From assembly GCA_900315565.1 (NCBI GenBank), contig OMZS01000002.1, positions 62,001 through 126,000 on the forward strand: a stretch of 64,000 nucleotides of DNA. Reading direction: 5' to 3'. This stretch comes from an uncultured Prevotellaceae bacterium. Its GTDB lineage: Bacteria; Bacteroidota; Bacteroidia; Bacteroidales; Bacteroidaceae. The position numbers and the translations under genes are program-made. The notes below the pieces were generated by a model. The model was given only the letters and a program-made list of their open reading frames with translations, had not been told where the DNA came from and searched no databases. Positions 2,786 to 64,000 of the stretch are shown in pieces. Numbering within the stretch: position 1 is the first letter of the stretch; each line of letters begins with the position of its first letter.

Positions 2786-2853
2786 AAATGCGTGCATTTA
2801 CGAAAAAAAACAGCTCACAATGAACGTCGTTTGCTAAATTTTTCTTATATTTG
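2786..2853 (+). promoter_or_regulatory. promoter and operator-like palindrome of RNA leader copy A
   Basis: An inverted repeat AAATGC-GT-GCATTT (2786-2799) is followed by ACAGCTCACAATGAACGTCG and TTTG, then after 12 bases TATATTTG (2846-2853). The whole block is almost identical to 4091-4158, so promoter, possible operator and leader were duplicated together. Confidence 0.6.
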
Positions 2854-2859
2854 CGGTGT

Positions 2860-3100
2860 CGTTCAATAAAGGGCGATAAACATAGTAGGAAGCGTTTAGC
2901 TTTCATCTGTACCGAAAAGTCTGGTAAACTTGAAACGTACAACAGATGAATGTGAACACGTTCTCTCCTTGGTTGGAATATACCATGCCGAGCCGTCATT
3001 GGCTCACATCCTATATATCCTCCAAGGGTGTGGGCTGTTTCTTTTATCTTTGTACAGGTTTTACCAGAGCCTTCGGTAGGATAGACTGAAAGGCTCACAC
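2860..3100 (+). ncRNA. structured RNA leader, copy A
   Basis: Paired with a second copy at 4165-4385. Shared unpaired motif AGGAAGCGTTTAGCTTT (2888-2903) is followed by stem 1 CATCTGT/ACAGATG (2904-2910 with 2942-2948), stem 2 CCTTGG/CCAAGG (2967-2972 with 3022-3027) extended inward by GGAATATA/TATATATCC and capped by GAGCC/GGCTC, and stem 3 GTGTGGGCT/GGCTCACAC (3028-3036 with 3092-3100) with an inner hairpin. The paired bases differ between the copies while pairing is kept, which supports a conserved RNA structure. It ends about 30 bases before a membrane-protein start codon, so a cis-acting leader is likely; function unknown. Confidence 0.65.
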
Positions 3101-3129
3101 CTCCCGTTGTACAAGTATGAAGATTGACC

Positions 3130-3600
3130 ATGAAAGATAAAACAATCAGATTAAACAAACATAGTCGCCTTGCAAAAACATTTGTTGGCGTGATGCTTCT
3201 TGTAATAGGTTGTATAGTTTATCTGCTATTTAGGAGTAAGACACTATATTTATATATATGGTGTGAGTCATTGGGACTGTCTGCGCCTATTGATGCCTTT
3301 CGCCTTGCTGTATGCAATTGGTCTATTCCAGACTTTATCAAATTCAGCCTCCCCGATGGTCTTTATTGTGCTGCATATCTCTTAATAATGGATTCAATTT
3401 GGCATGAGGATAATAGCTGGCTAAAATACCCCGTCCTTTCGATGGTTCCAGTAATAACTATTGGTAGTGAGATCTTACAATACTTTGGATTTGTAAAAGG
3501 CACCTTTGATACCTATGATCTCATTTGCTATTCAGTACCGCCCATTATTTATACGTTTATTACACACCAAAGTTTAACAAATAAAATAATTAGATTATGA
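3130..3600 (+). CDS. VanZ-like small integral membrane protein
   Basis: 156 residues with about four hydrophobic segments (near 18-36, 65-85, 90-112 and 125-145). The motifs LPDGLYCAAYLLIMDSIW and SEILQYFGFVKGTFDTYD resemble VanZ-like Bacteroidota membrane proteins (family resemblance from memory). The start at ATG 3130 fits better than the TTG six bases earlier. It follows RNA leader copy A and overlaps the next gene by four bases (ATGA), so the two are co-translated. A diverged, frameshifted second copy lies at 10072-10541, again coupled to a secreted-protein gene. Confidence 0.65.
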   Translation: MKDKTIRLNKHSRLAKTFVGVMLLVIGCIVYLLFRSKTLYLYIWCESLGLSAPIDAFRLAVCNWSIPDFIKFSLPDGLYCAAYLLIMDSIWHEDNSWLKYPVLSMVPVITIGSEILQYFGFVKGTFDTYDLICYSVPPIIYTFITHQSLTNKIIRL

Positions 3601-4013
3601 AAAAGAGCATTTTAACTGTAGCTGTATTAGCATTGTTTGCTATCGGTTTTGTGGCCTCAGATGAAGAGGAACAATCAAACAAAACTACAAGTCCAACCCC
3701 TCAAACGGAACAAAAAAAGGAATCTGCAACTAAAGAAAAACAAAAGCAAGCACCCCAAAAGAGCAAAAAAGACGAAATCAGAGAATTGGGATTTAATGAT
3801 GGCGTCAATTTTGGTTACAGTGACAAGGGGAATGCACTGCGTGAATACGTACAGATGGGGCAGACATTGGATAATGGATTGAACCACATTCAGAATGTGA
3901 TAGCAAAAGTTGCTTATAAAGAAGATTATGGAGATGATATAAGTGACGAGCTGTTGGATGAGTATTGCAAACAGTTTATTGAAGGTTACAAAAGTATAGT
4001 TATAAAGAAATAA
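3597..4013 (+). CDS. secreted or membrane-anchored protein with the ALFAIGFxASDE leader
   Basis: 138 residues. The N-terminus (MKKSILTVAVLALFAIGFVA) is a signal or anchor segment, followed by a low-complexity Lys/Gln/Thr-rich linker (about 25-60) and a small helical domain (RELGFNDGVNFGYSDKG... to the end). The first 25 residues closely match the protein at 10538-11419, but the rest is unrelated, so a common export segment carries different C-terminal domains. It is translationally coupled to the VanZ-like gene. The function of the C-terminal domain is unknown. Confidence 0.6.
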   Translation: MKKSILTVAVLALFAIGFVASDEEEQSNKTTSPTPQTEQKKESATKEKQKQAPQKSKKDEIRELGFNDGVNFGYSDKGNALREYVQMGQTLDNGLNHIQNVIAKVAYKEDYGDDISDELLDEYCKQFIEGYKSIVIKK

Positions 4014-4090
4014 GGTAATGATATAATAGAAGCTATGCAGGTAGATAATCGTCTGACAAATAATATATGCCAGAACGATAGAAATCGAAA

Positions 4091-4158
4091 AAATGCGTGC
4101 ATTTACGAAAAAAAACAGCTCACAATGAACGTCGTTTGCTAAATTTTCCTTATCTTTG
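4091..4158 (+). promoter_or_regulatory. promoter and operator-like palindrome of RNA leader copy B
   Basis: AAATGC-GT-GCATTT (4091-4104), then ACAGCTCACAATGAACGTCG, TTTG, 12 bases and TATCTTTG (4151-4158). It is nearly identical to 2786-2853. Confidence 0.6.
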
Positions 4159-4164
4159 CCGTGT

Positions 4165-4385
4165 CGTTATAAAAGAACGACAAACATTGTAGGAAGCGTT
4201 TAGCTTTTTCCAAACTGATGAATCTCGACACCTCATCTGGAAAAATGGAAAAGTAATGATGTTCTTCCCTTGGTTGTGATAGTATAGGTATATCCTTACT
4301 TCATACAAGGGTGTGAGCTGTTTTCACTAATCTTTTTTCCAGGCAGTCGAGAGCCTATCAGTTAGATTAGCTGACAGGCTCACAC
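4165..4385 (+). ncRNA. structured RNA leader, copy B
   Basis: Homologue of the RNA at 2860-3100. After the shared AGGAAGCGTTTAGCTTT motif (4191-4207), stem 1 is TTTTTCCA/TGGAAAAA (4205-4212 with 4238-4245) with an inner GATGA/TCATC. Stem 2 is CCTTG/CAAGG (4268-4272 with 4306-4310). Stem 3 is GTGTGAGC/GCTCACAC (4311-4318 with 4378-4385), enclosing AGCCTATCAG/CTGACAGGCT. Stem 1 shares no paired sequence with copy A, yet pairs equally well. TTCTTTTTG follows stem 3, so in this copy stem 3 could also act as a terminator. It precedes the secreted-protein operon by about 40 bases. Confidence 0.65.
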
Positions 4386-4424
4386 TTCTTTTTGTATATT
4401 ATTATATATCCTAAATTCTAAATT

Positions 4425-5366
4425 ATGAAAAAAGAAATTTTTTTAACAGCAGCATTTCTGTTTGTCTCATTTATTACAATGGCACAAAAGAAGCCGACAA
4501 TTATGATTCTTCCCAGTGACCATTGGTGTGAGATTCGCTATTTTATGACCACTTATGATAATCAGGGTACGAAAGTGAAAACTCCTAATTATCAGCAGGC
4601 ATTTATAGAAGATACGGAAATAGGTCCAGTTATCAGTAAGATTGGACAAGTGTTGACAGATATGGGTTATAGTCTTAAGGATGCGGAACAAGAAATAAAG
4701 AGTATTAACACGAAGACTGCAGAAGATAATGTGACCATGAGTAAGACAAGTGGTGCTTCATTAGTTGAAAGTCCCCTTGATATTTTGAAACGTCGCATTA
4801 AGTGTGACATCCTTATTCAAATATCCTGGGACTTATCACGTTCAGCAGGTGGCCATTCAACCACATTTACTTTAGAAGCTTTTGACTCATATACCAATAA
4901 GCGTATTGCCACTTCTACAGGAACGACGCAAGGAGCTGGTGGTATTGCAGATTTACTGGCTTCTGCTGTCAAACAAAATGCAAAACCATTTGACAAACAG
5001 ATGGACAAGTGGTATGTAGACCAGAGGAAAAATGGTCGTGAGATTAATCTTTCCATTCGGTGTTGGGACAGTTGGGAGAATGATCTTGAGACAGAATTCG
5101 GCGGTGAAGAACTGACAGACTGCATTCAGTCATGGCTACAGAACAATTGCGTTAACGGTGCCTTCAATTTGAGTGACGGTACAGAATCATTTGCGCAATT
5201 TGAACAGGTTCGTATTCCTTTAGAAGATGAAAAAGGAAAAGCTATGGATGCTCGTGCTTTTGCTACATTATTGCGTAAATACTTAGCAAAACCACCTTAT
5301 AATATTACTGCTAAAGTGATGCAGAGAGGATTAGGAGAAGCAATCTTAGTATTAGGAGAGAAATAA
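4425..5366 (+). CDS. DUF6175-like secreted protein
   Basis: 313 residues with a signal peptide (MKKEIFLTAAFLFVSFITMA). The mature part starts KKPTIMILPSDHWC and contains an alternating strand/helix region followed by IKCDILIQISWDLSR. This pattern is that of a CsgG/TolB-N-like envelope protein, and I associate it from memory with the Bacteroidota family DUF6175. First gene of a run of four secreted-protein genes (gaps of 2, 19 and 16 bases) behind RNA leader copy B. A role in an outer-membrane or periplasmic assembly is possible, but no function is established from the sequence. Confidence 0.6.
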   Translation: MKKEIFLTAAFLFVSFITMAQKKPTIMILPSDHWCEIRYFMTTYDNQGTKVKTPNYQQAFIEDTEIGPVISKIGQVLTDMGYSLKDAEQEIKSINTKTAEDNVTMSKTSGASLVESPLDILKRRIKCDILIQISWDLSRSAGGHSTTFTLEAFDSYTNKRIATSTGTTQGAGGIADLLASAVKQNAKPFDKQMDKWYVDQRKNGREINLSIRCWDSWENDLETEFGGEELTDCIQSWLQNNCVNGAFNLSDGTESFAQFEQVRIPLEDEKGKAMDARAFATLLRKYLAKPPYNITAKVMQRGLGEAILVLGEK

Positions 5367-9730: not shown

Positions 9731-10071
9731 TGCTCATTACATTCTTCTTTTGAAAAAGAATTAACTGAAGCTGACACGATATGATGTATCAGAAATTGGT
9801 TCTGGTTAGGTTATGGCATTTACAATTCTCTATTGTAGATTGGAAAAGGCTTATGCACAATATGAGCAGATTTCTGCAAAGATGGATGGCTTTCTGTTTA
9901 AAAAGAAGAGATAAAAAAGATTGACAAGCTGTAAGGTGAGTACGGTACTTCTTGAAGAGTGTCGTTATGTCTCAGAGTGTTATGGAGAGCGAGATAATGA
10001 GTTTATTCGATGGTCAAACAGTACGGTGGTGTGATTACGTCATGTGGAAAGAAAAGAAAAATAGAATGTTA
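9731..10071. other. intergenic stretch with possible gene debris
   Basis: No complete gene. A 33-codon frame at 9813-9914 (ending GFLFKKKR) has protein-like sequence but no family and could be the tail of a decayed gene. The RNA leader found before the intact VanZ-like gene is not present here; its signature AGCGTTTAGCTTT was not seen. Confidence 0.4.
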
Positions 10072-10541
10072 ATGTCATGTGGTTTTTTACAAAAGCAAAC
10101 AGGAAGCCGTGTCTATAAGATGATCTTTGGAGTATTCCTTCTTTTCTGTGGATGTAGTATATATTTGCTGTTGCGCAGTGAAGCACTAAATATTTACTAC
10201 TGGTGCTGGGAAGTCGGGATTTCTGGATATATTGATTTCTTGCGTTGCATCGTAAGTGGATGGGACTTACCAAACTTCGTCAAATACAATCTACCAGATG
10301 GACTTTATTGTGCTGCATACATATTATGATAGATTCGATATGGGGTAGGAGAAAAGATATGTCTAAGTATCTCATGGTATCAATCATTCCCCTTGCAGCA
10401 TTAGCTTGTGAGGTTCTTCAGTTTTTTGGAATAACGAAAGGGACATTTGATGTCTGTGACTTAATATGTTATGTAATACCAGTCTTCTTTTACATATTGT
10501 TTGAAATCAATTGTTTAACAAATATAATTAGAGAAGTATGA
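10072..10541 (+). pseudogene. frameshifted second copy of the VanZ-like membrane protein
   Basis: The first part (from MSCGFLQKQ at 10072) and the second part (MIDSIWGRRKDMSK... from 10326 to 10541) together align along the whole length of the protein at 3130-3600: YLLLRSEAL, LPDGLYCAAY, then SIW, EVLQFFGITKGTFDVCD. Where the intact copy reads TTAATAATGGAT, this one reads TTATGATAGAT, so a net loss of bases puts a TGA at 10327-10329 and shifts the frame. It still ends in ATGA overlapping the next gene. A sequencing error or frameshifting cannot be excluded. Confidence 0.65.
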
Positions 10542-11419
10542 AAAAGTATTTTTATTCAATGTTAGTGTTGGCTCTTTTTGCCATAGGTTTTGCTGCATCT
10601 GATGAAACAGAAGTACCTAAAGATTCTGTCCAAAAGAAAGATAAAGTTGTTGAGAATAATACAAAGAAAGAATCTCAGTCGAAAGAGAATCTTGATGTAC
10701 AACATTTTGTGGGTGATTACTTTTACAGTTATTTTAGGGGGGATACAAATGCAAAAATGTACTTTAAATTGTCGCTAAAGAGTGATGGAAAGTTTACATT
10801 AGAACCGAGTAATGAGGAGACTAGGAAATGGATAGATATTGATAAGGTTATGAGTGGAGATGATTTCCCTGAAGGTGGTGATTGGAAAGTAAAGGATACA
10901 CCCGTGGGCAAAGGCGCGTTTTTGGATTTTGACGGAGCTTGGGATGAGGGAAGTATTACTTATGACAGGAAAGTTTTAGGGATAAAAAATATGAATGGAT
11001 ATAATTTGAGAGCCGAGTTATCTTATCAAGAAACCAAGACCATTTCCAAAGATCCTGTTTCTCCCCCAAAATCTCCTGAGGTTTTGATTAAAGAATTTTA
11101 TACATATATTTTGGGTGAGAAAGAAATGACAGAAGATGTTTTAGATACTTTTCTTTCTAAGGACATGAAGCTATCTTTGTGGGAGTTAGATTATGAAGGT
11201 CAGTATGCTTATTGGCGTTTTAGAACTGCTGCAGATGATGGTAATGGAGAGCCTGTTGGACCTGATGGAATAAAGCAGGTAAGTCATGATGGTAATAGTT
11301 GGTATACTGTGTCTTATATAGATATGGGCTTTGAGGGACGAACAAAAGTAAAAGTGGTTAATGGTAAAATCGTGGGGCTTAAACAGGATGAGAGTTGGGG
11401 CGAGGAGCCGAATCCCTAA
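10538..11419 (+). CDS. exported protein with ALFAIGFxASDE leader and DUF3828-like C-terminus
   Basis: 293 residues. N-terminal segment MKKYFYSMLVLALFAIGFAA matches the gene at 3597, then a Lys-rich linker (25-50), a beta-rich lipocalin-like domain (about 55-165, starting FVGDYFYSYF), and a C-terminal domain (about 175-285: VLIKEFYTYILGEKEMTEDV, then a Ser/Tyr-rich beta sheet) that resembles DUF3828. Overlaps the frameshifted VanZ-like gene by four bases, repeating the two-gene arrangement at 3130-4013. Probably periplasmic or anchored in the inner membrane. Confidence 0.6.
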   Translation: MKKYFYSMLVLALFAIGFAASDETEVPKDSVQKKDKVVENNTKKESQSKENLDVQHFVGDYFYSYFRGDTNAKMYFKLSLKSDGKFTLEPSNEETRKWIDIDKVMSGDDFPEGGDWKVKDTPVGKGAFLDFDGAWDEGSITYDRKVLGIKNMNGYNLRAELSYQETKTISKDPVSPPKSPEVLIKEFYTYILGEKEMTEDVLDTFLSKDMKLSLWELDYEGQYAYWRFRTAADDGNGEPVGPDGIKQVSHDGNSWYTVSYIDMGFEGRTKVKVVNGKIVGLKQDESWGEEPNP

Positions 11420-12301: not shown

Positions 12302-13441
12302 TCACAATTTCCCCGCTTTAGAGGCTAGATAATAGTCTAAAAGGGTCATGGCAGCCATCGATTCTACGATGGGCACGGCCCTGGGCAACACACAGGGGTC
12401 GTGGCGTCCGCGGGCGCGCAGCGTGGTGGCGTTGCCCTCTAAATCTACGGTGTTCTGCTCCATGAGCAGGGTGGCCACGGGTTTGAAGGCCACGCGGAAA
12501 TAGATGTCCTGCCCGTTGCTGATGCCGCCCTGAATGCCGCCGCTGTGGTTGGTAAGGGTGTTGGGTGTTGGGTGTTGGGTGATGGGTGATGGGTGTTGGG
12601 TGATGGGTGATGGGTGTTGGGTGTTGGGTGATGGGGTGACGGGCACGAAGATGTCGTTCTGCTCGCTGCCACGGGCGGTTACACCGGCAAATCCCTCGCC
12701 GTATTCAAAACCTTTCACGGCGTTGATGCTGAGCATGGCACCGCCCAGGGCTGCATGTAGCTTGCCAAACTCAGGCTCGCCAAGGCCTGCCGGACAGTTT
12801 CTGACGACGCAGGTGATGATGCCGCCAATGGTGTCGCCCTCGGCTTTCACTTGAGCGATGAGCTGTTCCATGAGCTGCGCCTTTTCGGGGTCGGGACATC
12901 GCACGACATTTGTCTCGGTGAGCGAGAGGTCGTACTGGTGGTAGTCGCGGTCGAGGGCAATGTTGCCCACCTGCGAGGTGTAGGCCTGTATGCTGATGCC
13001 GAGCTGGCGCAGGGCAAGCTTGGCCAGTGCACCGCCCACGCAGCGGCTGATGGTGATGCGGGCCGAAGAGCGTCCGCCGCCCCGATGGTCGCGAATGCCG
13101 TACTTACTGTAATAGGTAAAGTCGGCATGCGAGGGACGGAAGAGGCAACGCATGTTCTCGTAGTCCTGCGAGTGCTGGTTGTTGTTACGCACAATAAACC
13201 CGATGGGGCAGCCTGTGGACTTGCCTTCGAAGACGCCGCTGAGCAGTTCCACCTGGTCGGCTTCGTCGCGCGCCGTGGTGATGTGGCTTTGTCCGGGGCG
13301 CCGACGGTTGAGCTCGGCCTGAATGAAGTCCAGGTCGATGTCGATGCCGGCAGGCAGACCGTCAACTACGCCACCTACAGCCGGGCCATGGCTCTCGCCG
13401 AAGGTGGTCAGCCTGAATATGTTGCCAAAAGTGTTTTGCAT
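12302..13441 (-). CDS. aroC: chorismate synthase with an in-frame repeat insertion
   Basis: Converts 5-enolpyruvylshikimate-3-phosphate to chorismate, the last step of the shikimate pathway, using reduced FMN. Family signatures are clear: [10 protein letters not shown] near the start, [14 protein letters not shown] and [11 protein letters not shown] in the middle, and [14 protein letters not shown] near the end. At 379 residues it is about 20-25 longer than usual; the excess is the run of [12 protein letters not shown]-type units (about residues 269-296), encoded by a GGGTGTTGGGTGATGG repeat and placed in the loop before [13 protein letters not shown]. The enzyme may tolerate this surface loop. 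It feeds the Phe/Tyr operon at 30 kb but lies apart from it. Confidence 0.95.
12556..12636. repeat. GGGTGTTGGGTGATGG repeat inside aroC
   Basis: About eleven 7-base units GGGTGTT or GGGTGAT lie within the aroC frame. The same unit occurs inside the copper ATPase gene (27148-27202) and in the intergenic stretch after tyrA (34163-34190). Confidence 0.85.
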
Positions 13442-14244: not shown

Positions 14245-14982
14245 TCATTTGGTTTCTCCGCATTTTGCGGCTTCGCCCTTCTTGCAGCACTTCTTGTCTT
14301 CGTCTTTCTTGCAGCCTTTCTTGCTTTCGTTATTCTTGCAGCACTTCTTGCCTTCGCCCTTCTTGCAGCACTTCTTATTCAGCAGAGCGCAGATGTCGGC
14401 ATCGATGTCGGCAATTTTGTCGGTAGGCTCATAGCGTTTCACTACGTTTCCTTTTTGATCGACCAGGAACTTGGTGAAGTTCCATTTGATGCTGGGCGAC
14501 TGGGCGTAGTTGGGGTCGTTTTTCTTGAACATGTCGTCGAGCAGTTTGCCCGTCTTGTCGTTGAGGTCAAATCCGCCGAAGGGTTTCTGTGCTTTCAGGT
14601 AGGTATAGAGCGGGTGCTCGTTGGGGCCGTTGACCTCAATCTTGTCGAACTGTGGAAACTGAATGTTGAAGTTGGCCGTGCAGAACTGGTGAATCTCCTC
14701 GATGCAGCCTGGAGCCTGCTCGCCAAACTGGTTGCAGGGGAAATCGAGAATCTCGAGCCCCTTGTCGCGGTATTTCTCGAAGAGAGCCTCCAATTCGTTG
14801 TACTGGGGCGTAAACCCGCAGCGCGTAGCCGTGTTGACAATGAGCATCACCTTGCCTTTGTACTGGGCAAGTTCCACCTGTTTGCCTTCATCGTTAGTCA
14901 CCTGGAAATTGTAAATCTCTTGTGCGTTGCCCGTCAGCGTAAGAAGGGCGGTCAGCATACATAATAAAATGGTCTTTTTCAT
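14245..14982 (-). CDS. exported glutathione peroxidase-like protein with Cys/Lys-rich tail
   Basis: 245 residues: signal peptide (1-20), thioredoxin-fold peroxidase domain (22-195) with NTATRCGFTPQY containing the peroxidatic Cys, LDFPCNQFGEQAPG and WNFTKFLVD holding the Gln/Trp/Asn partners. It would reduce peroxides in the envelope, probably with thioredoxin-like donors. The last 45 residues are unusual: four to five KKCCKKGE-like units rich in Cys and Lys, not part of the family. They could bind metal or form disulfides. A -7 box lies at 15021-15014 on the minus strand. Confidence 0.85.
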   Translation of the reverse strand: MKKTILLCMLTALLTLTGNAQEIYNFQVTNDEGKQVELAQYKGKVMLIVNTATRCGFTPQYNELEALFEKYRDKGLEILDFPCNQFGEQAPGCIEEIHQFCTANFNIQFPQFDKIEVNGPNEHPLYTYLKAQKPFGGFDLNDKTGKLLDDMFKKNDPNYAQSPSIKWNFTKFLVDQKGNVVKRYEPTDKIADIDADICALLNKKCCKKGEGKKCCKNNESKKGCKKDEDKKCCKKGEAAKCGETK

Positions 14983-61684: not shown

Positions 61685-64000
61685 ATGAAGAAAAAACTTA
61701 AGAAGGTGCTCGTGCTTGGCAGCGGCGCACTGAAAATCGGACAGGCCGGAGAATTCGACTACTCTGGCTCGCAGGCCCTGAAAGCCCTGCGCGAAGAAGG
61801 TATTAGCAGCGTTTTGGTTAATCCCAACATTGCCACCATCCAGACCAGCGAAGGCATTGCCGACAAGGTGTATTTCCAGCCTGTGACCACCCATTTCGTC
61901 ACGGAAATCATCAAGAAAGAACGTCCCGACGGCATATTGCTGGCTTTTGGCGGACAGACAGCCCTGAACTGCGGCACAGAGCTTTACCTTAACGGCACGC
62001 TGAAAGAGTATGGCGTTGAGGTACTTGGCACCAGTGTCGAGGCCATTATGAATACCGAAGACCGCGACCTCTTTGTGAAAAAACTGGGCGAGGTCAATCT
62101 GAAAGTTCCCGTGAGCCATGCCGTAGAAAACATGGACGACGCGCTGAAAGCTGCCCGCAGCATTGGGTTCCCCATCATGATTCGCTCGGCCTACGCCCTG
62201 GGCGGACTGGGCAGCGGCATCTGTCCCGACGAGAAAACCTTTGTCGAGCTGGCCGAGAGTGCCTTCACCTTCGCCCCGCAGATTCTGGTAGAAGAGTCGC
62301 TCAAGGGCTGGAAGGAAATAGAGTTTGAGTGCATACGCGATGCCAACGACCGCTGCTTCACCGTGGCCTCGATGGAGAACTTCGACCCCCTGGGCATCCA
62401 CACCGGCGAGAGCATCGTGGTGGCGCCTACCTGTTCGCTCACCCCCGAGCAGGTGAAAATGTTGCAGGACATCACCATCAGCTGCGTCAAGCACCTGGGC
62501 ATCGTGGGCGAGTGCAACATTCAGTTTGCGTTCAATGCCGTTACCAACGACTACCGCATCATAGAAATCAACGCCCGCCTGTCGCGCTCCAGCGCGCTGG
62601 CCTCCAAGGCTACGGGCTATCCACTGGCCTTCGTGGCTGCTAAAATAGCCTTGGGCTACACCCTCGACCAGATTGGCGAGATGGGCACCACCAGCTCGGC
62701 CTACGTGGCTCCGAGCCTCGACTACATGATTTGTAAAATCCCGCGCTGGGATCTTACCAAGTTTGCCGGTGTGAGCCGTCTCATTGGTTCGAGCATGAAG
62801 TCGGTGGGCGAAATCATGAGCATCGGACGTTCGTTTGAGGAAATGATACAAAAGGGACTCCGCATGATAGGCCAGGGCATGCATGGCTTTGTTGGCAACG
62901 ACCACACTCGGTTCGACGACCTCGACACCGAGCTGGCCAACCCCACCGACCTGCGCATTTTTGCCATTGCTCAGGCTCTGGAGGAGGGTTACAGCGTTGA
63001 GCGAATTGAAGAGCTGACTAAAATTGATGTTTGGTTCCTTGAGCGACTCAAACATATCGTTGACCTGAAGCATAAGCTGCAAGAATACAACAAGTTGGAG
63101 GATTTGCCCGACGATTTCCTTTTAGAGGTGAAGCGTGCCGGATTCAGCGACTTCCAGATTGCACGTTTCGTGCTCAAACCCGGCAACGGCAACATGGAAA
63201 AAGAGAATCTGGCTGTGCGTCAGTACCGCAAAGAGCGCGGCATCCTGCCTTCGGTGAAGCGCATTCCGACCGTGGCCAGCGAGCACCCCGAGCTGACCAA
63301 CTATCTCTATTTTACCTACACCCATGTTCCCGCCTTCCAGGATGCTTTCAGCGTAGGCCGAGGCGAAGCCACGGCTCCCGCCGCCGCTGCTGCCGCTCTT
63401 TATAAGCCCCGCCACGACGTGAACTACTACCAGAACGACAAGTCGGTGGTGGTGCTCGGCTCGGGCGCTTACCGCATCGGCAGTTCTGTGGAGTTCGACT
63501 GGTGTTCGGTCAACGCCATCAACACTGCCCGCAAGCTGGGCTACAAGAGCATCATGATTAACTACAACCCCGAGACCGTCTCCACCGACTACGACATGTG
63601 CGACCGTCTTTACTTCGACGAACTCTCGCTCGAGCGCGTGCTCGATGTCATCGAGCTCGAATCGCCTCGCGGCGTGATTGTCTCGGTGGGCGGCCAGATT
63701 CCCAACAACCTTGCCATGAAGCTCCACCGACAGGGCGTTCCCGTGCTGGGCACCAGTCCGGTGGACATCGACCGCGCCGAAAACCGCGACAAGTTTTCGG
63801 CCATGCTCGACAAGCTCGGCATCGACCAGCCCGCATGGCGCGCGCTGACCTCGTTCGAGGACGTGAAGGAGTTTGTCGATGAGGTGGGCTATCCCGTGCT
63901 CGTGCGTCCCAGCTACGTGCTCAGCGGTGCGGCCATGAACGTGTGCTACGACGACGAGGAACTGCACCGTTTCCTCAACATGGCCACCGAAGTGAGCAAG
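61685..64000 (+). CDS. carB: carbamoyl-phosphate synthase large subunit (cut by window end)
   Basis: 772 codons visible of about 1070. Makes carbamoyl phosphate from bicarbonate, ATP and glutamine-derived ammonia. First half: VLVLGSGALKIGQAGEFDYS, ALLAFGGQTALNCG-like segment, GGLGSG loop, and the oligomerisation region. Second half begins VVVLGSGAYRIGSSVEFDWC. The motifs GSGALKIGQAGEFDYSG and GSGAYRIGSSVEFDWC are those I recall from eukaryotic CPS/CAD proteins rather than from enterobacterial CarB (GGGPNRIGQGIEFDYC). The partner carA is not in the window. Confidence 0.92.
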   Translation, partial: MKKKLKKVLVLGSGALKIGQAGEFDYSGSQALKALREEGISSVLVNPNIATIQTSEGIADKVYFQPVTTHFVTEIIKKERPDGILLAFGGQTALNCGTELYLNGTLKEYGVEVLGTSVEAIMNTEDRDLFVKKLGEVNLKVPVSHAVENMDDALKAARSIGFPIMIRSAYALGGLGSGICPDEKTFVELAESAFTFAPQILVEESLKGWKEIEFECIRDANDRCFTVASMENFDPLGIHTGESIVVAPTCSLTPEQVKMLQDITISCVKHLGIVGECNIQFAFNAVTNDYRIIEINARLSRSSALASKATGYPLAFVAAKIALGYTLDQIGEMGTTSSAYVAPSLDYMICKIPRWDLTKFAGVSRLIGSSMKSVGEIMSIGRSFEEMIQKGLRMIGQGMHGFVGNDHTRFDDLDTELANPTDLRIFAIAQALEEGYSVERIEELTKIDVWFLERLKHIVDLKHKLQEYNKLEDLPDDFLLEVKRAGFSDFQIARFVLKPGNGNMEKENLAVRQYRKERGILPSVKRIPTVASEHPELTNYLYFTYTHVPAFQDAFSVGRGEATAPAAAAAALYKPRHDVNYYQNDKSVVVLGSGAYRIGSSVEFDWCSVNAINTARKLGYKSIMINYNPETVSTDYDMCDRLYFDELSLERVLDVIELESPRGVIVSVGGQIPNNLAMKLHRQGVPVLGTSPVDIDRAENRDKFSAMLDKLGIDQPAWRALTSFEDVKEFVDEVGYPVLVRPSYVLSGAAMNVCYDDEELHRFLNMATEVSK

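Follow-up and report, generated by a model that had tools for sequence, protein, structure and literature searches.

What kind of RNA heads two operons in an uncultured Prevotellaceae bacterium (GTDB lineage Bacteria; Bacteroidota; Bacteroidia; Bacteroidales; Bacteroidaceae), and what could it do there? The window analyzed here is the whole stretch of 64,000 nucleotides (nt) from position 62,001 to 126,000 of the forward strand of contig OMZS01000002.1 (GenBank assembly GCA_900315565.1). An initial annotation of this DNA had described two diverged copies of a structured RNA with common motifs and a common promoter. All of these are present at the places it gave, the promoters being nearly identical. 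Copy 1 occupies 2859-3102 and copy 2 occupies 4163-4394, both are members of one RNA family, and both fold far more stably than dinucleotide shuffles (z of -5.8 and -4.8; 0 of 200 shuffles equal either copy). We favor, with slightly better than even confidence, the reading that this RNA of about 240 nt is a cis-acting transcription-attenuation leader that would choose between two folds. Core and divergent counts below refer to a core set of 48 non-redundant complete RNAs and to 78 more divergent members.

Selection on RNA structure, proposed earlier from the two copies, is strongly supported by covariation and swap tests. From 5' to 3', the elements are the promoter, the hairpin HP0, the small hairpin Hm (AAGC..GCTT), P1, the P3 hairpin, P5, and P7. 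P1 encloses the 5' strand of P8, H1 with the 5' strand of PK1 in its loop, and the 5' strand of P2, while the P7 loop carries the 3' strand of P2, H2 with the 3' strand of PK1, and the 3' strand of P8; P8, PK1, and P2 connect the 5' domain with the 3' domain. The family form of P5 is GTGTGAGC/GCTCACAC, and divergent members often have GGCGTGGGC/CCCACGC. In a first alignment of 23 RNAs (21 relatives and the two window copies), RNAalifold found double changes at 18 of 38 pairs. The named structure (HP0, Hm, P3, P5, P8, and PK1) was then tested on the 48-row alignment, where 97.9% of the cells are paired compared with 83.7% after shuffling and 34 to 44% when the structure is slid. Double-change cells number 250 against 74.6 in shuffles, and 0 of 500 shuffles reach the paired share or the double-change count; further pair types do not exceed the shuffles, as 163 of 500 reach the count. 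Double changes occur at 5 of 6 pairs in HP0, 6 of 6 in P8, 6 of 7 in PK1, and 2 of 4 in P3. Hm has none in this set. For the 3' half, 58 core and divergent sequences gave 87.6% paired cells versus 81.9% shuffled and 83 double-change cells versus 30.9. In these, 96.0% of the P5 cells and 94.3% of the H2 cells are paired, and double changes affect 5 of 7 pairs in P5, 2 of 3 in H2, and all five in P7. HP0, P1, P3, P5, H2, P8, and PK1 are supported by covariation or by swap tests, and P7 with weaker counts.

The claim that stem 1 keeps its pairing with different bases also held, as P1 forms a helix of at least 4 base pairs in all 48 non-redundant relatives (just 4 in two of them). Its own arms score 16.9, compared with 11.7 (standard deviation [SD] 2.5) when arms are exchanged between divergent relatives, and in 29 of 48 the own arm outscores all mismatched ones. 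In copy 2, the pairing of TTTTTCCA stood and the partner named for it, TGGAAAAA at 4238-4245, did not: the partner consistent with the family is TGGAAAAG at 4246-4253. TGGAAAAA is also complementary to TTTTTCCA, yet homology identifies it as the 5' strand of P2, whose partner is 4333-4340. Several motifs had been taken for single-stranded, which proved mistaken for CCTTGG, GTGTGxGC, and GGCTCACAC, all of them paired strands of P3 and P5. AGGAAGCGTTTAGCTTT contains the small hairpin AAGC/GCTT, which hardly varies, so that covariation is uninformative there.

The contacts between the two domains were also assessed with an alignment-free swap test, which compares the 5' loop of a molecule with its own 3' loop and with the 3' loops of dissimilar molecules. 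Core members score 43.7 with their own loop versus 24.9 (SD 5.4) with the others; 44 of 48 beat all mismatched partners, and four lose to one. Divergent members score 50.3 versus 29.5 (SD 5.2), with 66 of 78 beating all 25 sampled partners and 12 losing to between one and four. The loop-loop complementarity holds within molecules and not between molecules. P2 was assigned by eye and was tested jointly in this swap test. A plausible-looking terminal helix, P0, in which the A-rich 5' end would pair with the U-run, failed a swap test and was rejected (own 19.4 versus 17.7 swapped; median fraction of swaps scoring as well or better 0.31; n = 99).

In the folding models, the helices seem to fall into two mutually exclusive folds with one common strand. 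The first is a rod, a single long hairpin that takes in P8, PK1, P2, and P3 as nested helices; the minimum-energy fold of one divergent member (L096; z of -9.0) is exactly such a hairpin. The second consists of two hairpins, P1/H1 and P5/P7/H2, with the U-run behind the second. Since P8, PK1, P2, and P3 can nest in one hairpin, the two-fold reading replaced one based on a pseudoknot only. The two are not exclusive, as the loops could kiss within the two-hairpin fold. The common central strand scores 20.5 with its own upstream partner versus 16.4 with swapped ones, and 22.4 versus 15.9 with the 3' arm of P5; both partners reach at least 18 in 68 of the 78 divergent members. In free folds, the central strand pairs upstream in all 48 core RNAs and in 75 of the 78 divergent ones. 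When the pairing span is limited to 105 nt, 40 of 48 and 33 of 78, respectively, pair it with the 3' arm instead. The central strand of copy 1, GGGTGTGGGCTG, behaves in this way, with the upstream partner in the free fold and the 3' arm in the span-limited one.

Directly behind P5, the T share over 8 nt is 0.73 in the core and 0.81 in the divergent set, compared with 0.28 in a control taken from the divergent set. Six or more of these eight positions are T in 100 of 126 RNAs, of which 33 belong to the 48 core and 67 to the 78 divergent members. In part of the family, a further hairpin, H3, follows the U-run with a loop complementary to the 3' arm of P5; this loop ranks in the top 10% of swaps in 42 of 125 members (12.5 expected) and in the top 5% in 25 (6 expected). 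Under the attenuation reading, the rod would hold the central strand upstream, in P3, leaving the 3' arm free while RNA polymerase reads into the gene (ON). In the two-hairpin fold, P1/H1 and P5/P7/H2 would form as local hairpins, and P5 with the U-run would stop transcription (OFF). H3 would be possible only in read-through RNA and may, as an optional part, lock the ON fold. What the data show are the helices, a strand with two partners in most divergent and some core members, the U-run, the promoter, and the co-directional genes; termination, the assignment of ON and OFF, this lock, and any trigger (a metabolite, a protein, or another RNA) are what we infer.

The same 3' region lends itself to another explanation, in which a leader that binds a ligand or protein would affect translation or the stability of the mRNA. 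The U-run would then be an unstructured spacer for ribosome access, and P5/H3 near the start codon would set that access. H3 lies behind the U-run and before the gene, and its loop matches the 3' arm of P5 in a subset (GAGCC/GGCTC, GGGACT/AGTCCC, GGGTTT/AACCC); the chosen open reading frame (ORF) starts a median of 72 to 73 nt behind P5. However, the U-run sits directly at the end of P5 in a terminator-like manner in the 100 RNAs counted above, and most members lack H3, which leaves this explanation rather unlikely in our view. With regard to a leader-peptide attenuator, the count covered ATGs just behind the U-run. These occur at 15 of 47 core loci (14.3 expected), not above control, and at 27 of 78 divergent loci (14.3 expected), and the peptides differ. 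Such an ATG with a short ORF was seen, for example, at the divergent loci L082, L105, L107, and L118.

The position of the RNA is that of a leader. A -7 box, TAnnTTTG, which we take to be the promoter consensus, lies in the 135-nt stretch upstream of 47 of the 48 core RNAs and 59 of 77 divergent ones. At the core loci, the longest ORF immediately behind the RNA always runs in the same direction (46 of 46), as it does at 74 of 78 divergent loci (120 of 124 in all); a separate core count of downstream genes gave 45 of 46. The leader-type class suggested by the initial annotation is thus strongly supported by promoter position and gene orientation. Its distances also agree, since the two genes behind the window copies begin 29 and 39 nt downstream of the final CACAC base. 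The annotation had left room for an independent RNA, that is, a terminated small RNA (sRNA) acting in trans, with the next gene a mere neighbor. The promoter just upstream, the terminator-like 3' end, and the presence of several copies per genome are what such an RNA would have. On the contrary, the strong orientation bias of the next genes is not shared by the upstream genes of the core loci (29 of 44 co-directional, 15 not, and two more without a call), and loop sequences differ between copies of one genome. Moreover, among the 73 RNAs with a start codon at most 120 nt away, a -7 box lies in between in 4 and in none of the other 69; a leader is therefore favored over an independent RNA, which we regard as quite improbable. 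The promoter regions of the two window copies (2784-2863 and 4089-4168) are 96% identical over 80 bases, while the RNAs behind them can be aligned with many changes and are much more diverged, a pattern that could reflect recent exchange or strong constraint.

It is important to weigh the observations that count against the attenuation reading. In the core set, P5 has no double change, and only about 70% of the aligned P7 cells in the 58 sequences are paired. In the swaps of the central strand, just 37% (upstream) and 44% (3' arm) of the members fall in the top 5%. Among core members, only 20 of 48 have a score of 18 or more with both partners, the other core upstream pairings being weaker; copy 1 has a strong upstream alternative (26), and copy 2 is without one (14). 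Since a strong upstream alternative exists in a minority of core members, our confidence in the attenuation leader is slightly lowered. With limited span, the central strand remains upstream in 8 core and 45 of 78 divergent RNAs, and the rod is more stable by about 8 kcal/mol in nearest-neighbor folds; the terminator fold would therefore need kinetics, kissing contacts, or a factor. The U-run behind P5 of copy 1 is weak (CCCGTTG), and H3 was found neither in the window copies (fractions 0.86 and 0.60) nor in most members. Furthermore, the promoter control (a -7 box in 1 of 48 core and 5 of 77 divergent stretches of equal width within the downstream genes) comes from coding sequence, and the model searches R1 and R2 described below were confined to Bacteroidota, with rough E-values.

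The genes behind the RNA are diverse, and no common pathway is seen. Ten chosen downstream genes matched, in Pfam, Radical_SAM, SPFH Band_7_1 with GYF_2 (twice), a ResIII helicase, CHASE2, a TonB plug with CarboxypepD (twice), BspA LRR_5 (twice), and TonB_C. By eye, proteins resembling the first gene after copy 1 also stand behind the RNA at loci L011, L014, and L027, and proteins resembling the DUF6175 gene after copy 2 at L031 and L033. The initial annotation had both copies heading operons of exported proteins, a generalization that fared poorly. A crude measure of hydrophobic N-termini picks out 26 of the 46 core downstream genes and 48 of the 74 divergent ones, compared with 25 of 54 window ORFs; the bias is therefore mild at most. 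Such diversity would suit a passive 5' element that stabilizes or insulates the mRNA without switching, as would the hairpin HP0 at its 5' end. A stabilizer, however, needs neither doubly used strands nor loop-loop pairing retained over such divergence, and we hold this explanation to be very unlikely. Very different genes would also follow a DNA-level element, such as a recombination site or the end of a mobile cassette, with palindromes acting as DNA. In one congeneric copy (L023), the RNA breaks off internally and an unrelated gene follows at once, and the gene upstream of another (L120) is transposase-like by eye. The promoter, the orientation bias, and the G-U pairs in the helices all speak against an element of this type, which appears extremely improbable.

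Covariance-model searches of Bacteroidota, which the initial annotation had called for, yielded further matches with covariation. When at most two mismatches are allowed, 29 of 299 congeneric genomes, counting the own genome, contain the 5' motif. Reading of 33 loci showed the RNA or its beginning at the motif in all but 3 of the 29 genomes (L006, L010, and L018). These three and L005, on a viral contig, have the motif without the rest of the RNA and were taken as chance. Three further motif sites (second sites in G262, G199, and G059) lay outside the loci read. At L023 (G059), the RNA ends after CATCTGTA and an unrelated gene follows, as after a deletion or insertion inside the leader. A scan of named genomes with the motif and GGTGTG gave 36 stretches, including nine duplicates (two within the 36), with titles naming Prevotella, Prevotellaceae, Bacteroides, Phocaeicola, Alistipes, Muribaculaceae, or Bacteroidales. 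Five loci that end too early (L013, L021, and L030, at contig ends, and L038 and L048) were kept out of the core set, and L057, too short downstream, belongs to it but not to the gene counts.

The R1 model covers the 3' half without the 5' motif, although GGTGTG, which it includes, had been part of the scan pattern. At E ≤ 0.01 it matched 58 of 295 Bacteroidales genomes in 41 of 177 genera, with about three chance matches expected. The broader R2, at E ≤ 0.001, matched 41 of 392 Bacteroidota genomes in 21 of 178 genera, with about 0.4 expected by chance if the rough E-values hold. The matches inspected by reading were loci L072, L075-L127, and L129-L156. Single genomes have up to seven matches by R1 (G452 and G533) and eight by R2 (G393). 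R1 reveals a third copy in the own genome, and R2 finds there, below 0.001, the two window copies, C38, C3, and C22, with C17 and C18 at 0.004. P5 is almost a palindrome, so both models also match copy 2 on its opposite strand, and this echo was left out of the counts. The seven copies of G533 (L104-L110) have a similar framework with differing P1, P2, and P8 sequences and head BspA-LRR-like, lipoprotein-like, membrane, and helicase genes.

We offer more tentatively the idea that the RNA represents a phylum-wide, unnamed Bacteroidota switch class with a kissing two-domain architecture and up to about eight copies per genome, which might place unrelated operons (SusC transporters, BspA surface proteins, and membrane and SPFH genes) under one signal. 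A large structured leader that covaries strongly is usually a sign of important regulation, and the present RNA recurs across a phylum that is prominent in communities of the gut and the rumen. If the RNA is a switch, its signal would reveal that surface transporters and accessory operons of Bacteroidota are controlled in common.

Comparison with Rfam 15 gave no family that would make the RNA ordinary: none reached its gathering threshold over the window. Between 2700 and 4500, at E ≤ 10, only two sub-threshold matches appeared, MIR169_5 opposite copy 1 (16.8 bits; gathering 44) and one long noncoding RNA elsewhere. Across 45 loci (relatives and own-genome copies; E ≤ 1 or 5), just ceN93 on L050 fell at an RNA (24.9 bits; gathering 60), and matches above gathering (tRNA and rteR) lay away from it. 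A copy of the rteR sRNA family, above gathering, lies at 39-121 of L144, about 1.4 kb from an RNA of the present family. Among open-access papers, none was found whose title or opening abstract lines describe this RNA, and absence there is not proof.

Among the closest known systems, terminator/antiterminator leaders (attenuators and riboswitch expression platforms) resemble the RNA in having a promoter, a structured leader, a strand common to two exclusive helices, a stem with a U-run, and a co-directional gene. In contrast, the terminator-like hairpin here has a long loop with strands pairing to the 5' domain, there is no known sensor fold, and an extra hairpin lies behind the U-run in part of the family. 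In the available text of its report, FopS is a paralogous, trans-acting sRNA family of Bacteroides with a single-stranded 5' stretch carrying the seed, followed by a terminator hairpin (PMC11697453). It is likewise a multicopy structured Bacteroidales RNA with SusC genes involved and a terminator-like end (PMC11697453), whereas the present RNA is a large, mostly paired leader. As far as that text gives it, the FopS/GibS layout of a single-stranded 5' seed and one terminator hairpin was not seen here, as the 5' end is HP0 and the RNA is largely paired. Structured RNA candidates of the same phylum, as listed in the accessible part of the 2010 report by Weinberg, include 6S-flavo, Bacteroidales-1, Bacteroides-1/-2, Flavo-1, and GUCCY-hairpin (PMC2864571). 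Those listed in Rfam do not match, and Bacteroides-2 and GUCCY-hairpin, without an accession in its table (PMC2864571), fell outside the comparison. HMP2_1881 is described, in the portion of its source available, as a structured RNA candidate of 108 bp, mostly from Bacteroidetes, near radical SAM genes and reported as expressed (PMC8040213). Radical SAM-type proteins also follow several RNAs here (by eye; one confirmed by Pfam). Compared by description, HMP2_1881 is shorter (108 bp, PMC8040213, against about 240) and might overlap part of the family.

Features of the two RNA copies and their first genes in the window (+ strand; all positions are those of the window).
Feature	Position	Strand	Basis
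Copy 1, -7 promoter box TATATTTG (TAnnTTTG)	2846..2853	+	read in sequence
Copy 1, HP0, 5' hairpin directly behind promoter, UCGUUC/GGGCGA	2859..2876	+	fold; double changes in HP0 columns
Copy 1, conserved AGGAAGCGTTTAGCTTT with small hairpin Hm (AAGC/GCTT)	2887..2903	+	paired, nearly invariant
Copy 1, P1 stem CATCTGT (2904-2910) / ACAGATG (2942-2948)	2904..2948	+	arm pairing in relatives
Copy 1, strands inside P1: P8 5', H1/PK1 loop, P2 5'	~2910-2916, 2920-2929, 2937-2942	+	P8 and PK1 by covariation
Copy 1, P3 hairpin CTCCTTGG/CCAAGGG	2965..3028	+	fold and alignment
Copy 1, TGGCTCACATCC, alternative upstream partner of central strand, inside P3 hairpin	3000-3011	+	strand scoring
Copy 1, central switching strand (putative) GGGTGTGGGCTG	3025..3036	+	scores 26 upstream, 25 downstream
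Copy 1, 3' strands: P2 (3050-3055), PK1 (3058-3068, in H2), P8 (3072-3078)	3050..3078	+	48-sequence covariation for PK1 and P8; swap test
Copy 1, P5 3' arm GGCTCACACCT	3092..3102	+	strand scoring, alignment
First gene after copy 1, membrane protein, VanZ-like by eye	3130..3600	+	no Pfam match at 1e-3
Copy 2, -7 promoter box TATCTTTG	4151..4158	+	read in sequence
Copy 2, HP0 GTCGTT/AACGAC	4163..4181	+	alignment, covariation
Copy 2, 5' region: conserved motif (4191-4207), P1 (4205-4212/4246-4253)	4191..4253	+	homology, covariation
Copy 2, 5' strands: P8, PK1, P2	4213-4218, 4223-4229, 4239-4245	+	homology, covariation
Copy 2, P3 hairpin CCCTTG/CAAGGG	4267..4311	+	fold, covariation
Copy 2, P5 GGTGTGAGC (4310-4318) / GGCTCACAC (4377-4385)	4310..4385	+	covariation
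Copy 2, P7 CTAATC/GATTAG	4327-4332, 4365-4370	+	58-sequence covariation count
Copy 2, 3' strands in P5/P7 loop: P2, PK1, P8	4333-4340, 4346-4352, 4358-4363	+	PK1 and P8 by covariation
Copy 2, U-rich tract TTCTTTTTG, terminator-like, directly behind P5	4386..4394	+	T share across family
First gene after copy 2, DUF6175 (PF19672)	4425..5366	+	Pfam E-value 3.6e-99

Other features of the window deserve mention. Ten of its proteins compared with Pfam gave DUF6175, a kinase, and a PIN domain, with seven showing no match. A second VanZ-like gene (by eye) at 9952-10541, related to the one at 3130-3600, consists of two overlapping frames and looks broken, and the gene behind it (10538-11419) has an N-terminus similar to that of the gene following 3130-3600; R2 found no RNA of the present family before this second gene. 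A promoter-like stretch at 2486-2536 has an upstream element (CAGCTCAC.ATGAA.GT.GTTTG) and a -7 box as at both RNA promoters, with no RNA behind it; in the genome, the element occurs at these three places only, at up to three mismatches. A small gene followed by a PIN-domain gene (PIN_3) at 1359-2028 has a toxin-antitoxin-like arrangement, and tandem repeats at 12542-12649 and 14245-14376 consist of a GGGTGTT/GGGTGAT heptad and a 27-base unit.

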